Both the position numbers and the translations under genes were made by a program. Shown piece by piece: positions 2,409 to 30,886 of a DNA stretch of 39,424 nt. The notes under the pieces are model-generated. The model saw only the letters and a program-made list of their open reading frames with translations. It had not been told where the DNA came from and searched no databases. This DNA comes from an uncultured Pelagibacteraceae bacterium (GTDB lineage Bacteria; Pseudomonadota; Alphaproteobacteria; Pelagibacterales; Pelagibacteraceae). Positions within the stretch are counted from its first letter, which is position 1, and each line of letters opens with the position of its first letter. Location: contig CACDPY010000006.1 in assembly GCA_902554765.1 (NCBI GenBank), forward strand, positions 1 through 39,424, in the 5' to 3' direction.

Positions 2409-3331
2409 ACCTTAAGCTCTTTCCAAAATATTTTAGCAAGATTTATATTTGATAAATCATATAAAGTTTTTAATCCAGTAGGGGATGTTACATTAATATC
2501 ACCATTAAGTTTTTGATCTATAAAATCAATTCCAGCAAAAAAAATTTGCTCTTTTTTTAAATCTCTAGCAACAAATCTAGAAATCTTTTTTTCTATTTTT
2601 GATAATTTGATGTTAATTGGCCTAGCTCCTTTGCTCATATTACTTAAAAATGATCCTTTTTTAGGAATTCTGGAGATCGCACCAACAATTTTGCCATTTA
2701 TCAAGAAAACTCTCTTATCACCTTTACTAATTTTTGATAAATATTTTTGACACATAATAAAATTATGTTTTTCAATAAATTTTTTAATAAATCTAAGATT
2801 AAATTTGGTTAATAAGTGAATATTATTTCCACTATAGCTATGAATAGGCTTAATTATAACTTTCTTTTGTATTTTAAAAAATTTTTTTATTTCATTTATA
2901 TTTTGAGAAAAAATAGTTGCAGGCATAAATTTTTGATATTTAGCTGAATAAAGTTTTTCAGAAATATTTCTTATCGACGTAGGATCGTTAATAATTTTTA
3001 CCTTATCTTTAATAGTATCTAATATAAAAGTAGTAGAAATATATTCGAGATTAAATGGAGGATCTTGTCTAATAAGAATGAATTTACATTTAGTAAGATC
3101 TAACTTTTGTTTTTTAAAAATTTCAAAATATTTTTTTTTATCATAATTGAATTTAATAAAAGATCCCTCAGCAATAACTTTAGAATTCACTATAGATAAA
3201 TTTTTTGGATTATAATAAAATATTCTATATTTCTTTTTTTGAATTTCATTAGCTAAAAAAATACTTGTATCTGTAGCAAGTTTTAGTTTGGAGATTTGAT
3301 TTCCTTGAATTGCAACAATTTTATTTGTCAT
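2405..3331 (-). CDS. gshB: Glutathione synthetase, divergent ATP-grasp
   Basis: ATP-dependent ligation of glycine to gamma-glutamylcysteine, the second step of glutathione synthesis, in the cytosol. About 308 residues, close to the bacterial GshB length. Counting from an upstream Met at 3340, visible motifs are RQDPPF (91-96), INDP followed by TSIRNISEKL (117-130), the ATP-grasp loop IKPIHSYSGNNI (163-174), GDKRVFLINGK (207-217) and the C-terminal NVTSPTG (283-289), which is diagnostic for GshB. Two starts are possible: ATG at 3340 (MNYMTNK) or 3331 (MTNK); I chose 3331 because the first beta strand then begins at the usual distance. It overlaps the 3' end of gshA and is coupled to the DMT gene downstream. 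The sequence is diverged and lysine-rich, as expected in this genome type. Confidence 0.9.
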   Translation of the reverse strand: MTNKIVAIQGNQISKLKLATDTSIFLANEIQKKKYRIFYYNPKNLSIVNSKVIAEGSFIKFNYDKKKYFEIFKKQKLDLTKCKFILIRQDPPFNLEYISTTFILDTIKDKVKIINDPTSIRNISEKLYSAKYQKFMPATIFSQNINEIKKFFKIQKKVIIKPIHSYSGNNIHLLTKFNLRFIKKFIEKHNFIMCQKYLSKISKGDKRVFLINGKIVGAISRIPKKGSFLSNMSKGARPINIKLSKIEKKISRFVARDLKKEQIFFAGIDFIDQKLNGDINVTSPTGLKTLYDLSNINLAKIFWKELKV

Positions 3332-4616
3332 ATAATTCACTTAAATCTTCATTTTTAGAAAATTTATTTATCATTTGATCGGCGTTTGTGAATTTATTAT
3401 CAATAACTTTTTGTAAATGATTTAAGAACAAGGTTTCATTCTTTTTACTTCTATTGACTATGCCTCTATTCTCTAAACCTTTTCTTGATAGATTTAATAA
3501 AGTAGAGGACCAATAAAGAAGATCTTTTCCCATTAATTGAGTATTAAACCCCTTCTCAGGAGCTTCAATATAAGCATTTATAATTTTATCCTTATCCCAT
3601 TGAGAAATTAATTCATAAACTTCATCAAGATTCCCATAAAGCATACCAACATTAAAAGCAGGACCAGCACACAAACAATCCCACCCACAAGTATCCATTG
3701 ACCTAAGTTCTATATATTTTTTCAATCTATTTTCTGTAAAGATTGTGCTTAAGTGAATTGATAAATCCTCCTCGTTAGGTAATCGTTTTCCAACTTCGAC
3801 AATTTTCCCATCCATAAAGTCCTTAAAAATATATTTATGCCCAGAAATATAGCTTTCTTTATCTTTAATAAATAATATTGGAAAATTTATTATAAAATCG
3901 GCATACTTTTCAAAATCTATTTCATCTAAAAATAATTTTGGAAGTCCACCTCTAGAAGTACTTTGCCATACTTTTGAGCGGTAAGATAAATATTTACTTT
4001 TTTTCTTTTCAACAATTGAAGAATTTGCAAATAAAGCAATGGAAATAGGAACTATTGAATTAGCAATTTTAAATTTTTTGATAAAATCTTTTTCAGAATT
4101 ATAATCGATATTTAATTGTGTTCCACAAGTTCGATACATCATATCTAAACTTAATTCACCATCGAGTGGCATATCATTAGTCATAAGTTTGTATCTTTTT
4201 TTAGGATTATTGGGAATTTCAGACAGTTGTGATATTGGATCAAATCCAGCACTAACTATACTTAAATTTAATTTTTTTGTGACTTGTTTTAATTCAAACA
4301 AATAATCATGAGATTCAGCACAAGCCTCATGAAGATTGTTAAGTTTTTCCCCTGAAAGCTCTATTTGATTTCCTGGTTCAAGAGTAATATTTTTTCCACC
4401 TTTATTTAATCCGATTATATTTTTTTCCTCGAAAATTGGATTCCAACCAAATTCTAATAAGGTAGCAAACATTTCTTTTATCTTTGAATAATCTATCCTT
4501 TTATTGTTTTTATTATCAAATAAAAATTTTTCATGCTCAATTCCTATTTTAAAATCCTTGGATTGTTTAATTCCTGAGTTGAAATATTCTATTATTTGAT
4601 CTTTTGTATTTATCAT
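3321..4616 (-). CDS. gshA: Glutamate-cysteine ligase (plant/alphaproteobacterial type)
   Basis: Catalyses ATP-dependent formation of gamma-glutamylcysteine, the first and committing step of glutathione synthesis. The 431 residues match the GCS2 class shared by plants and alphaproteobacteria rather than the gammaproteobacterial GshA class. Supporting motifs are GIEHEKF (25-31), the glutamate/ATP site ITLEPGNQIELSG (77-89), YRTCGTQLN (161-169) and RSMDTCGWDC (305-314). It sits 21 bases after the HD-domain gene and overlaps gshB, so both glutathione enzymes are made from one message. The length is slightly shorter than usual for the family, without loss of a recognisable motif. Confidence 0.93.
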   Translation of the reverse strand: MINTKDQIIEYFNSGIKQSKDFKIGIEHEKFLFDNKNNKRIDYSKIKEMFATLLEFGWNPIFEEKNIIGLNKGGKNITLEPGNQIELSGEKLNNLHEACAESHDYLFELKQVTKKLNLSIVSAGFDPISQLSEIPNNPKKRYKLMTNDMPLDGELSLDMMYRTCGTQLNIDYNSEKDFIKKFKIANSIVPISIALFANSSIVEKKKSKYLSYRSKVWQSTSRGGLPKLFLDEIDFEKYADFIINFPILFIKDKESYISGHKYIFKDFMDGKIVEVGKRLPNEEDLSIHLSTIFTENRLKKYIELRSMDTCGWDCLCAGPAFNVGMLYGNLDEVYELISQWDKDKIINAYIEAPEKGFNTQLMGKDLLYWSSTLLNLSRKGLENRGIVNRSKKNETLFLNHLQKVIDNKFTNADQMINKFSKNEDLSELYDK

Positions 4617-27443: not shown

Positions 27444-29228
27444 TTGAATAAATATAGAAGCCATAATTGTAATGAATTGAGAAAGAAAGATATTGGAAAA
27501 AATGTTTTCCTATCAGGATGGATTAATAAAAAAAGAGATCATGGAAATCTTCTATTTATTGATCTTAGAGATAACTATGGAATTACTCAGTGTATAATTG
27601 ATAAAGAAAATTCCAATTTTAAAGAATTAGAAAAAACCCAACTTGAAACAGTTATAAAGATTAATGGAAAAGTGGTTGATAGAACAAAAGATACCATTAA
27701 TAAAGATATAGAAACTGGTGATATAGAAGTTGTTATAGAAGATTATTTTGTCTTAGGGACTTGTAGAGAATTACCAATGCCTGTTTTTAGTGATCAGGAA
27801 TATGCTGAGGAAATAAGATTAAAATATAGATTTTTAGATTTGAGAAGAAAAAAAATTCATGAAAATATAATTTTAAGATCAAAAGTTATTTCTTTTATAA
27901 GAAATGAAATGAGTAAATTAGGTTTCTTGGAGTTTCAAACACCCATCTTAACTTCTTCGAGTCCAGAAGGGGCAAGAGATTTTCTTGTTCCAAGTAGATT
28001 AAATCCAGGAAAATTTTATGCTCTCCCACAAGCACCACAACAATTTAAGCAACTAATAATGGTATCGGGATTTGATAAATATTTCCAAATTGCACCTTGT
28101 TTTAGAGATGAAGATGCAAGAGCTGATCGTAGTCCTGGTGAGTTTTATCAATTAGATTTGGAGATGTCTTTTGTTGAACAAGAAGATGTGTTTGATGTAG
28201 TGGAGGAATTACTAGTAAATACTTTTAAAAAATTTTCAAATAAAAAATTAATGTTTGAAAAATTTCCTAAGATTTCTTATTCGGATACATTATTAAAGTA
28301 TGGTACTGACAAACCTGATTTACGAAATCCTTTAATTATAAATGATATAACTGAAATTTTTTCACGACAGGATATTACTTTTGAGATATTCAAAAAACTT
28401 GTTAAATCTGGATCAAAGGTTAGATGTATTGTTACCAAAAATACTAAAGATAAGCCTAGAAGTTTTTTTGATAACATTGATAAATGGGCAAAAGAACAAG
28501 GTGCCTCAGGTCTTGCTTATTTTACTATTGAAGGAGATAAAAAAATTTCAGCCAAAGGCCCAGTTGGTAAATTTTTTTCAGAAGATGCTTTAAAAGAAAT
28601 AATGAAAAAAACTGAGGCCAAAGTAGGGGATAGTATTTTTTTAGCTTGTAGTAAACAAAAGGAATTAGAGAGAATTACATCCTTAGCCAGAGAAAAAATT
28701 GCTAATGATTTAAATTTGATTGATGAAAATATTTTTTCTTTTTGTTGGGTTGTTGATTATCCAATGTTTGAAAGAGACGAACAAACAAATAAAATCGAGT
28801 TTAGTCATAATCCATTTTCTATGCCCCAGGGTGATATTAACAAAATCAATTTTGAAAAACCTCTAGATATTCTTGCGTATCAGTATGATATTGTTTGTAA
28901 CGGTATAGAATTATCCTCTGGAGCAATTAGAAATCATATTCCAGATTTAATGTATAAACTTTTTTCTATTGCCGGTTATGATAAAAAACAAGTTGATACT
29001 AAATTTAGTGGAATGATAAACGCATTAAGCTATGGTGCTCCTCCGCATGGAGGAATAGCCCCAGGAATTGATAGAATAGTTATGCTTTTAGCAAATGAAA
29101 AAAATATTAGGGAAGTTACAATGTTTCCTATGAATCAAAACGCTCAAGATTTAATGATGAATGCACCATCTGAAATAAATGAAAAACAATTAAAAGAATT
29201 AAGTTTATCTTTGAAATTAAAAAAATAG
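27444..29228 (+). CDS. aspS: Aspartyl-tRNA synthetase, probably non-discriminating
   Basis: Charges tRNA-Asp with aspartate. 594 residues, bacterial class IIb layout: OB-fold anticodon domain (about 15-100), catalytic core with motif 2 FRDEDARADR (220-229), the GAD insertion domain (about 290-400), and motif 3 GAPPHGGIAPGIDRIVMLL. Translation starts with TTG. In the anticodon domain His33 (RDHG) is at the position where Pseudomonas non-discriminating AspRS has His31 and E. coli has Leu; this favours an enzyme that also loads tRNA-Asn for amidation by GatCAB. The second marker position (Gly83 there) appears to be Asp here, so the call is tentative. Ends one base from the convergent TSCPD gene. 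Confidence 0.95.
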   Translation: MNKYRSHNCNELRKKDIGKNVFLSGWINKKRDHGNLLFIDLRDNYGITQCIIDKENSNFKELEKTQLETVIKINGKVVDRTKDTINKDIETGDIEVVIEDYFVLGTCRELPMPVFSDQEYAEEIRLKYRFLDLRRKKIHENIILRSKVISFIRNEMSKLGFLEFQTPILTSSSPEGARDFLVPSRLNPGKFYALPQAPQQFKQLIMVSGFDKYFQIAPCFRDEDARADRSPGEFYQLDLEMSFVEQEDVFDVVEELLVNTFKKFSNKKLMFEKFPKISYSDTLLKYGTDKPDLRNPLIINDITEIFSRQDITFEIFKKLVKSGSKVRCIVTKNTKDKPRSFFDNIDKWAKEQGASGLAYFTIEGDKKISAKGPVGKFFSEDALKEIMKKTEAKVGDSIFLACSKQKELERITSLAREKIANDLNLIDENIFSFCWVVDYPMFERDEQTNKIEFSHNPFSMPQGDINKINFEKPLDILAYQYDIVCNGIELSSGAIRNHIPDLMYKLFSIAGYDKKQVDTKFSGMINALSYGAPPHGGIAPGIDRIVMLLANEKNIREVTMFPMNQNAQDLMMNAPSEINEKQLKELSLSLKLKK

Positions 29229-29229
29229 T

Positions 29230-30054
29230 TTATTTTTTCCCTTTAAGACTTATTTTAACATCAGATAAATCTACCAAATTTTTTTTATAATTATTTCTTA
29301 CAAAACCCTTACTAGTAATATCTTTAACAATTTTAAGTAATTTATTTTGGTCATCTGAATTTTGTTCATCAAAATTTGTATTTTCAGAAGACCCTATTGC
29401 TGGCGTATGAGCAAGATCCTCTCTATTTTGATAAGAAATAGCTAATTCTCTAAAAATATAATCCAATATAGATGTTGCGCTTAATATTCTATCATTTCCA
29501 TGAACTTTACCAGATGGTTCAAATTTTGTTCCTACAAACGCACTGATAAATTCATCTAAAGGCACACCATATTGAAGACCAAGGGATACAGCGATTGCAA
29601 AGTTATTCATCAGCGCTTTCACTAATTCACCTTCTTTGCTTGTATCAATAAATATTTCACCAATTTTTCCATCTTCATATTCTCCAGTATGCAAGTAGAC
29701 TTTATGGTCACCAATAGTTGCTTTTTGTATATATCCCTTCCTTCTATCAGGCATGCTAAATCTTTTACCGTTTTTTTCTGATGAAGCTGTTTTAGATTTT
29801 ATCAAATTTTCAAATTTTTGAGAAGCTGGTTTTTGGATTTCAGAAACAACATCAATTTTATTCTTTTCTGTAATCTGATTATTTTTAGGGTCTAAGCTTT
29901 TAGTTTTTCTATTATCTAATTTGACATCAAGAACCTCGAATTTTCCGTCATCTCTTTTTTCAAGATTTTTAAGTTCTGTCTCGTTAACATCATCCAAGTA
30001 ATGATTTACTTTAAAAGTACATGTGTAATAAGTTTCTATTAAGTATTTTGCCAT
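29230..30054 (-). CDS. Stand-alone TSCPD protein (NrdJ C-terminal-like)
   Basis: 274 residues. Residues about 99-216 (starting [14 protein letters not shown], with [35 protein letters not shown] and [17 protein letters not shown]) match the TSCPD region at the C-terminus of adenosylcobalamin-dependent ribonucleotide reductase NrdJ. The catalytic barrel is absent. The N-terminal 25 residues ([20 protein letters not shown]) are another conserved-looking block, joined by a charged, probably flexible linker (30-98). The only cysteine is Cys12, so there is no CxxC shuttle pair. It may be a separate partner or regulator of a ribonucleotide reductase, as in split NrdJa/NrdJb systems, or have a different role. 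Divergent from the NDUFA12 gene. Confidence 0.82.
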
Positions 30055-30168: not shown

Positions 30169-30528
30169 ATGTTGACATTTTTTAAAAAAATTTTCATTTG
30201 GTGGAATCAAGTTACTCTTGGAACAGCAATTAAAACAATTTTTTCTGGAAAACTTGTTGGTAAAGATAGTTTTGGAAATAAATATTATGAGAGTAAAAAT
30301 GGAAAAAGATGGGTTATTTACGCAGATGAAATTGATGCGTCGAAAATCCCTGTCGAATGGTATTCATGGATGCATTTTACACCTAACAAAATTGAAAAAA
30401 ATCATGATTTAAAAAAATATGACTGGCAAAAACCTCATCAACCAAATCTAACTGGCACTGATAAAGCTTATTACCCTAATAAAAATAAAGATGCTGTTGA
30501 AAAAAAATATAAAAGTTGGAAAAATTAA
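30169..30528 (+). CDS. Complex I accessory subunit, NDUFA12 family
   Basis: 119 residues homologous to the mitochondrial 17.2-kDa (B17.2/NDUFA12) subunit, a supernumerary part of NADH:ubiquinone oxidoreductase found in alphaproteobacteria. Typical features: TLGTAIKTIFSGKLVGKDSFGNKYYE, RWVIYADEIDASKIPVEWYSWMHF, and the C-terminal PHQPNLTGTDKAYYP. It likely sits on the matrix/cytoplasmic side of the peripheral arm. Presence of this gene implies the canonical NuoA-N complex elsewhere in the genome and is a strong marker for the alphaproteobacterial class. It overlaps the DUF2155 gene by 38 bases. Confidence 0.93.
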   Translation: MLTFFKKIFIWWNQVTLGTAIKTIFSGKLVGKDSFGNKYYESKNGKRWVIYADEIDASKIPVEWYSWMHFTPNKIEKNHDLKKYDWQKPHQPNLTGTDKAYYPNKNKDAVEKKYKSWKN

Positions 30529-30886
30529 ATTTATTTTTTACTTAATAAATTTTTTTATATCTCTGAGTTTTTGCAATGCAGACGAATTAGAGGGAAAATT
30601 TACAAATATAAAAATTCTAGATAAAATTAGTTCAAAAAATATATTGATTAAGCTTACAAATCAGGAAAATTATATCTATAAGGACCTTTCAATAAAAAGT
30701 ATGAAATGTCAAAATTCTAAATTTGACGATAATCCTGAGACAACTGCATATATTCAGGTAAAAGATTTAACAGATAAAGATAATGATAATGTATTCGTAT
30801 TTAATGGTTGGATGTTTTCATCGAGTCCTTCGATAGCTCCATTTGATCATCCAGTTTATGATATTTGGTTGGTAAGTTGTTATTAG
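30491..30886 (+). CDS. DUF2155 domain exported protein
   Basis: 131 residues with a signal peptide: basic start (MLLKKNIKVGKIK), hydrophobic core FIFYLINFFISLSF, likely cut after CNA before DELEG. The mature part carries the DUF2155 hallmarks: FTNIKILDKISSKN, a Cys in KSMKCQNS, FNGWMFSSSPSIAPFDHPVYDIWLVSC at the end. The two mature cysteines may pair. The family typically follows the NDUFA12 gene in alphaproteobacteria; its function is unknown. The start lies inside the upstream gene, and TTG at 30497 is an alternative. Ends within the last bases of accC. Confidence 0.87.
   Translation: MLLKKNIKVGKIKFIFYLINFFISLSFCNADELEGKFTNIKILDKISSKNILIKLTNQENYIYKDLSIKSMKCQNSKFDDNPETTAYIQVKDLTDKDNDNVFVFNGWMFSSSPSIAPFDHPVYDIWLVSCY

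Follow-up and report, generated by a model that had tools for sequence, protein, structure and literature searches.

SAR11, a bacterial group abundant in the ocean, carries a stand-alone TSCPD protein whose gene is almost certainly an in-place remnant of an ancestral nrdJ, minus the catalytic barrel and the zinc finger. The domain itself is known; its conservation as a stand-alone nrdJ remnant, across the genomes sampled from a streamlined marine family, was not met in the literature searched. The best overall explanation, which we hold with moderate confidence, is that this remnant has retained a binding function of its own. The 274-aa open frame studied here comes from a SAR11 genome of 878,680 bases that is 70.7% complete, and contig C6 of that genome is the window, meaning the whole 39,424-nucleotide stretch of DNA that was analysed. 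The features discussed below are collected in Table 1.

Table 1. Features of the stand-alone gene, its neighbourhood and the phage counterparts. Identities are mean pairwise values over 36 loci of the window's family in the order sample; dN/dS values are medians over 80 loci. Positions are those of the window except for the phage loci.
Feature	Position	Strand	Remarks
Stand-alone TSCPD protein, nrdJ remnant (almost certain)	29230..30054	-	274 aa; Pfam, NCBIfam, synteny
N-terminal block, residues 1-52, with C12	29899..30054	-	predicted strand-helix-strand; identity 63.2%
Variable linker, residues 53-97	29764..29898	-	identity 18.1%; dN/dS 0.279
TSCPD / IscU-like core, residues 98-216	29407..29763	-	identity 88.9%; dN/dS 0.010
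Second variable linker, residues 217-238	29341..29406	-	identity 36.9%; dN/dS 0.246
C-terminal segment, residues 239-274	29233..29340	-	identity 73.8%
aspS, convergent neighbour	27444..29228	+	also adjoins full nrdJ in the order's other family
NDUFA12-like gene, divergent neighbour	30169..30528	+	also adjoins full nrdJ in the order's other family
DUF2155 gene	30491..30886	+	belongs to the common neighbourhood
Phage orphan NrdJ tail	L375 9986-10645; also L376-L387, L269, L275, L266		TSCPD + zinc finger, between DnaB-like and SSB-like genes

The identity of the protein follows from its matches to domain and protein families. TSCPD (PF12637) is matched in Pfam at residues 110–205 (E 8.6e-14, 52.1 bits against a cut-off of 22.8), and residues 69–263 align with positions 942–1133 of the 1222-position NCBIfam model for NrdJ, NF005736 (E 1.6e-66, 224.7 bits). 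This score lies far under the whole-protein cut-off of 1737 because the tail alone is present, and the catalytic barrel family (PF02867) was not matched in the 274-aa protein in Pfam or NCBIfam. The single cysteine, C12, is found in 109/109 distinct homologues and in 37/37 rows of a second, broader set; CxxC is absent from the stand-alone protein and the core lacks any cysteine, which makes a redox role unlikely. The C-terminal segment aligns with a short stretch of NrdJ (invariant S248, G250, R253) and stops short of the zinc finger that NrdJ has beyond it: the zinc-finger tail C..C..FTLVRNG.C.KC..CG.T.GCS is present in all 16 NrdJ rows of the alignment and in none of the 23 stand-alone rows. 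The preliminary description had recognized an NrdJ C-terminal TSCPD block without barrel or CxxC behind a distinct N-terminal block, and it is borne out on both counts, by the PF12637 match, the NF005736 tail match and the one cysteine for the former, and by conservation in the 36 family loci compared for the latter. TIGR03905 was not among the NCBIfam matches of the window protein up to E 1, and a positive control, the L086 protein, reached 91.8 bits against the cut-off of 67.7. The L086 gene (1471–1878, minus strand), from the class sample, encodes a TIGR03905-type stand-alone TSCPD protein with four cysteines; TSCPD genes elsewhere in the class were assessed among the matches listed down to E 8.5e-12 in the 290-genome sample.

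The origin of the gene can be read from its locus. In the window's family, aspS lies convergent to the stand-alone gene at 36/36 loci and NDUFA12 divergent beside it at 35/36. A full nrdJ (~1,200 aa) occupies the same place, in the same orientation, in the order's other family, with NDUFA12 at 13/14 loci and aspS at 13/14; at the locus without aspS the contig stops just after nrdJ, and two of the 13 NDUFA12 loci have a frame of 70–74 aa between NDUFA12 and nrdJ. Among 21 loci examined in other alphaproteobacteria, nrdJ was assigned in 20, and NDUFA12 is adjacent to it or one small frame off in 6/20, one of which (L249) also has aspS. We conclude from these neighbourhoods that the arrangement is older than the order. 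The identity of the locus with that of nrdJ in relatives, together with homology to the nrdJ tail, is why in-place descent from nrdJ is regarded as close to certain. An unrooted tree of the core (115 columns, 29 rows) sets the 13 stand-alone rows off from all other rows by one branch (100/100) and splits 12 other alphaproteobacterial NrdJ tails from the stand-alone and other-family tails (98/97), a topology that agrees with the probable origin from nrdJ.

The order sample comprises 118 genomes, 93 of the window's family and 25 of the other family, and the best 80 relatives in the genome collection are all Pelagibacteraceae, Pelagibacterales or Pelagibacter (SAR11). A TSCPD match in a frame of 269–307 aa is present in 89/93 genomes of the window's family, so the stand-alone gene is no sequencing accident. 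In the four family genomes without TSCPD (G307, G339, G368, and G380, of which G307 is rated 99% complete), aspS is missing in three and is matched over residues 1–271 of 594 only in the fourth; because aspS is missing or cut as well, an assembly gap is the likely explanation. In the other family, TSCPD and the best PF02867 match are each found in 24/25 genomes, both in frames of 1196–1218 aa, and one genome has no PF02867 match. In the window's family, the best PF02867 match lies in a frame of 645–669 aa in 83/93 genomes and is lacking in 10/93; both TSCPD and PF02867 are matched in 80/93.

The shorter PF02867 frames have the size of a class I NrdA. Both PF02867 matches lie in frames of 646–651 aa in the window's own genome and four single-contig family genomes, and none of these five, of which the own genome is 70.7% complete, showed a class II barrel. 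The sole PF02867 gene of the own genome encodes a 646-aa NrdA assigned to class I by NF006577 (1007 bits against a cut-off of 620), an NCBIfam assignment that concerns this genome's gene only, as does the search for NrdB (PF00268). This NrdA ends in CLSCQ, is adjoined by a 338-aa NrdB, and matches the all-alpha and barrel Pfam families but no ATP-cone family at E up to 1. The nrdAB genes are on contig C1 and the stand-alone TSCPD gene is on contig C6. The B12-binding domain PF02310 has two strong matches in 6/6 other-family genomes tested; in the window's family there are none in 9/12 genomes and one weaker match in each of the remaining three, one of them above the cut-off. The locus thus appears to record the replacement of a B12-dependent reductase by a class I enzyme in a streamlined marine lineage. 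This swap looks like a single evolutionary event, and co-occurrence therefore cannot tell candidate partners apart.

In the searches made, the N-terminal 52-aa block was seen in the window's family alone. Across 290 class genomes, the sole match outside the family was weak (G098, E 0.0024) and, by eye, sits inside an apparent coiled coil. Across 397 phylum genomes there were two weak matches, and in 15 genomes of the order's other family the best match reached E 0.07; two of these other-family frames were inspected by eye, and both are unrelated to the block. There was no match in phage records and none confirmed in viral contigs, three versions of the block matched no Pfam family, and a profile comparison with four NrdJ returned nothing. 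On these results the block does not look like a fragment of the lost barrel.

Conservation is concentrated in the core. Over the 36 family loci, identity is 88.9% for the core, 77.2% for AccC, 73.7% for AspS, 66.7% for the whole protein, and 56.4% for NDUFA12. Over 80 loci the core has a median dN/dS of 0.010, the whole protein 0.059, and the two linkers 0.279 and 0.246, next to 0.066 for AspS, 0.042 for AccC, 0.057 for Ndk, and 0.130 for NDUFA12; these loci are the best matches to the window protein and hence biased toward conservation, their synonymous sites are near saturation (median pS 0.50–0.67), and neither the N-terminal block nor the C-terminal segment gave a defined value. The 36 order-sample loci serve as a less biased control for the dN/dS set. 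Only the core stands out; taken as a whole, the protein does not surpass its neighbours in conservation. Judged by these substitution rates, the core is evidently under very strong purifying selection.

The same domain is conserved in full-length NrdJ. In 20 full NrdJ (19 of the 21 alphaproteobacterial loci, two having been dropped by a motif filter, plus one other-family row), identity is 84.2% for the core, 65.4% for the barrel, and 83.5% for the 28-residue zinc-finger tail; in 14 other-family NrdJ the values are 98.8%, 89.4%, and 97.2%. The NrdJ zinc-finger tail is therefore conserved as strongly as the NrdJ core. The higher conservation of the core than of the barrel in alphaproteobacterial NrdJ was observed at loci L158-L161, L225-L235, L237, L238, L240-L254, and L169, and no explanation for this pattern in the 20 sequences was met in the literature examined.

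Comparison of the two sets of proteins position by position indicates how much of the core survived the change of reductase. Fifty-six core positions are invariant in 45 NrdJ (46 loci less one dropped), and 42 of them are invariant in all 36 stand-alone proteins. Of the other 14, 10 vary, with the NrdJ residue still present in between 25 and 35 of the 36 proteins, and 4 have switched (116, 139, 146, and 191); further changes are fixed in the window's family at 138, 143–145, 177, 192, and 212. We infer from this pattern that the main partner or ligand of the core was probably the same before and after the swap, and so is not the B12 barrel. The altered positions may mark a surface that formerly met the barrel or the zinc finger; alternatively, they may belong to an interface that is new or has been re-tuned, perhaps toward NrdA.

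Structure prediction offers a limited view of the fold. An AlphaFold2 model from 100 rows has a mean pLDDT of 74.2, with 89–96 at residues 101–210, and the first 50 residues, at pLDDT 69–90, are predicted as strand-helix-strand. The model improves on an earlier one from 39 rows (mean pLDDT 55.3), whose Foldseek matches all had E of at least 1.1; for the 100-row model every Foldseek row had E of at least 0.33, which are likewise weak matches. Structural comparison, in which whole-protein models were used, placed IscU, SufU, and CsdE chains among many of the top rows with weak scores (Z 3.2–4.6, rmsd 2.9–4.2), and lipoate-protein ligase and PUR domains tie with the IscU/SufU rows at Z 4.6. A sequence search of solved structures gave a chance match only. 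The weak SufU/IscU matches of the model fit the IscU-like label and prove nothing.

Additional stand-alone forms of the NrdJ tail occur in phages. A scan of viral contigs, from which 80 core-bearing loci were kept, revealed a group of 16 contigs, some nearly identical, with an orphan tail in a frame of ~210–260 aa that retains the zinc finger in 16/16. A DnaB C-terminal motif is found at 16/16 of these loci and an SSB-like motif at 13/16, and the three contigs without the latter end within ~100 bases of the tail. The gene order is DnaB-like, tail, SSB-like in the loci whose order was inspected, and Pfam analysis of one locus identified DnaB_C (E 5e-48) and SSB (E 1.5e-32). Barrel motifs were found in 0/16 orphan-tail stretches by a crude motif test, with only three stretches of ~20 kb. 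In 9 of the 16 loci, tblastn with the NrdJ barrel, NrdA, and NrdB gave no hit, and the same tblastn did detect barrels in three other phage loci; a full-NrdJ collection scan gave a tail-only match on 15/16 contigs. This phage context suggests a tie between the module and replication. Since the zinc finger is retained, the phage tails could instead be working in trans for a host NrdJ and need not reflect a barrel-free role. The scan also yielded short viral stand-alone TSCPD genes without the zinc-finger tail, in frames of 135–166 aa (L293 2977-3381, L296 895-1392, and L333 2926-3408), as well as a viral contig, L285, with NrdJ barrel matches in a single reading frame at 707-2815 and the core at 3001-3366 in a separate 167-aa frame, which may be a split gene or a frameshift.

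Several explanations of the stand-alone protein can be weighed against this evidence. The preliminary description had raised the possibility of a subunit of a split class II enzyme and had proposed a genome search for nrdJ, nrdA/B, or a catalytic partner lacking its tail. The protein does match the tail of which NrdJb consists. However, the search for PF02867 and PF00268 in the own genome, and for PF02867 in relatives, returned class I-type genes only, the own genome holding a complete class I NrdA/NrdB pair; no barrel is seen in the own genome, at 70.7% completeness, or in the four single-contig family genomes, the redox zinc finger and its cysteine pair are gone, and B12-binding domains are absent in 9/12 family genomes. 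An orphan subunit of the NrdJb kind is thus extremely improbable, and catalysis and split class II membership are excluded as far as tested. Decay into a remnant without function is just as hard to credit: the gene is a truncated nrdJ in a reduced genome and its two linkers evolve fast, but it is present in 89/93 family genomes, the other four being those with aspS missing or cut, its frame is present at 36/36 loci, and its core is held at a dN/dS of 0.010. A role with the divergent neighbour NDUFA12 in the assembly of respiratory complex I would account for the conserved adjacency at 35/36 family loci. That neighbourhood, however, is not specific to the stand-alone gene, as NDUFA12 also lies beside full nrdJ at 13/14 other-family and 6/20 alphaproteobacterial loci, and such a role is very unlikely.

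An IscU/SufU-like part in Fe-S or sulfur transfer would be in keeping with the many IscU, SufU, and CsdE chains at the top of the structural comparison, and the NrdJ domain is called IscU-like in one report (PMC9669993). The cluster-ligand cysteines are nevertheless absent, the sole cysteine lies in the N-terminal block, and Z is at most 4.6, level with lipoate-protein ligase and PUR domains, which leaves this role unlikely. The preliminary description had also named a regulator of a different reductase and a repurposed domain, and both are possible. In the first case the protein would act in trans on the class I reductase, as a putative regulator that docks on NrdA and controls the assembly or activity of NrdAB. 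Consistent with this, 80/93 family genomes carry TSCPD together with PF02867 matches, the own NrdA, with no ATP-cone match, may need outside control, and the core positions switched in the family are what a new NrdA interface would require; furthermore, NrdJb of Pseudomonas shows that an NrdJ tail can act in trans (PMC4520616). On the other hand, the gene is unlinked to nrdAB (contig C6 vs C1), the own NrdA ends in its own CLSCQ and so needs no redox help, and most NrdJ-invariant core positions are unchanged even though NrdA and the NrdJ barrel are only distant relatives. Regulation of the class I enzyme is accordingly possible, though we consider it doubtful.

The preferred reading, an nrdJ remnant with a retained binding function, runs as follows. 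In the window's family, nrdJ lost its barrel and zinc finger, and the core was kept together with the short stretch after it, now preceded by a new 52-aa N-terminal block. The core would bind in its own right, whether to another protein, to a nucleotide or nucleic acid, or to a second copy of itself, and this binding would be independent of the B12 barrel and of thiol chemistry, such that the cell still needs the core after the change of reductase. The 42 retained positions of 56 are easier to explain if the partner of the core did not change with the reductase. The N-terminal block would act as an added contact or dimerisation element, and the protein would be a small non-redox adaptor working where dNTP supply meets DNA replication. 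That the protein is functional, non-redox, and independent of a barrel is probable; its placement at replication and dNTP supply, which we think the likeliest role, is much more tentative. Candidate partners are the class I NrdA, the replication machinery, or something else, with homodimer formation or nucleotide binding as alternatives.

A broader proposal, more speculative still, sees in the TSCPD domain of class II reductases more than a tether for the redox zinc finger: it would be a module whose own conserved partner belongs to the boundary between dNTP supply and replication, and SAR11 would have kept this module alone and fitted it with a new N-terminal domain. If this is true, SAR11 amounts to a natural experiment, with the enzyme removed and only the module left. 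Because SAR11 separates the IscU-like domain from the enzyme, the role of the domain becomes directly testable. According to the paper that named the IscU-like domain, the reductase literature had assigned it no role, and dimerisation was proposed (PMC9669993); the Cys-rich domain is assigned functions in oligomerisation and terminal reduction (PMC5704485). The open-licence PMC literature yielded nothing linking TSCPD with ribonucleotide reductase or nrdJ with Pelagibacterales, and a retained stand-alone NrdJ tail was not met among the papers listed there on SAR11 and reductase, B12, or class II; for SAR11 with nrdJ, virioplankton papers were among the matches listed.

Stand-alone TSCPD proteins and separate NrdJ tails have precedents from which the SAR11 protein differs in distinct ways. 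Members of the TIGR03905 family also stand alone, but their model covers 78 positions with four cysteines by name, and the window protein does not match it. In NrdJb of Pseudomonas aeruginosa, the NrdJ tail is likewise a gene of its own, which mediates disulfide exchange on behalf of NrdJa, its partner in a complex of sub-micromolar affinity (PMC4520616). Unlike the window protein, for which neither was found, NrdJb carries a zinc finger with redox cysteines and has NrdJa as its partner. The phage orphan tails resemble the SAR11 protein in having a stand-alone core close to the alphaproteobacterial NrdJ tail, with 48/56 NrdJ-invariant positions kept (9 of the 16 loci compared), yet they keep the zinc finger, and no copy of the SAR11 N-terminal block was confirmed in viral contigs. 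The closest counterpart is the NrdJ tail itself (NF005736 / PRK07562; PF12637), which shares a homologous core, the same locus in the order's other family, and 42 of the 56 positions; relative to NrdJ, the window protein is without the barrel, the zinc finger, and the redox cysteines, has a new N-terminal block, and resides in a class I host.
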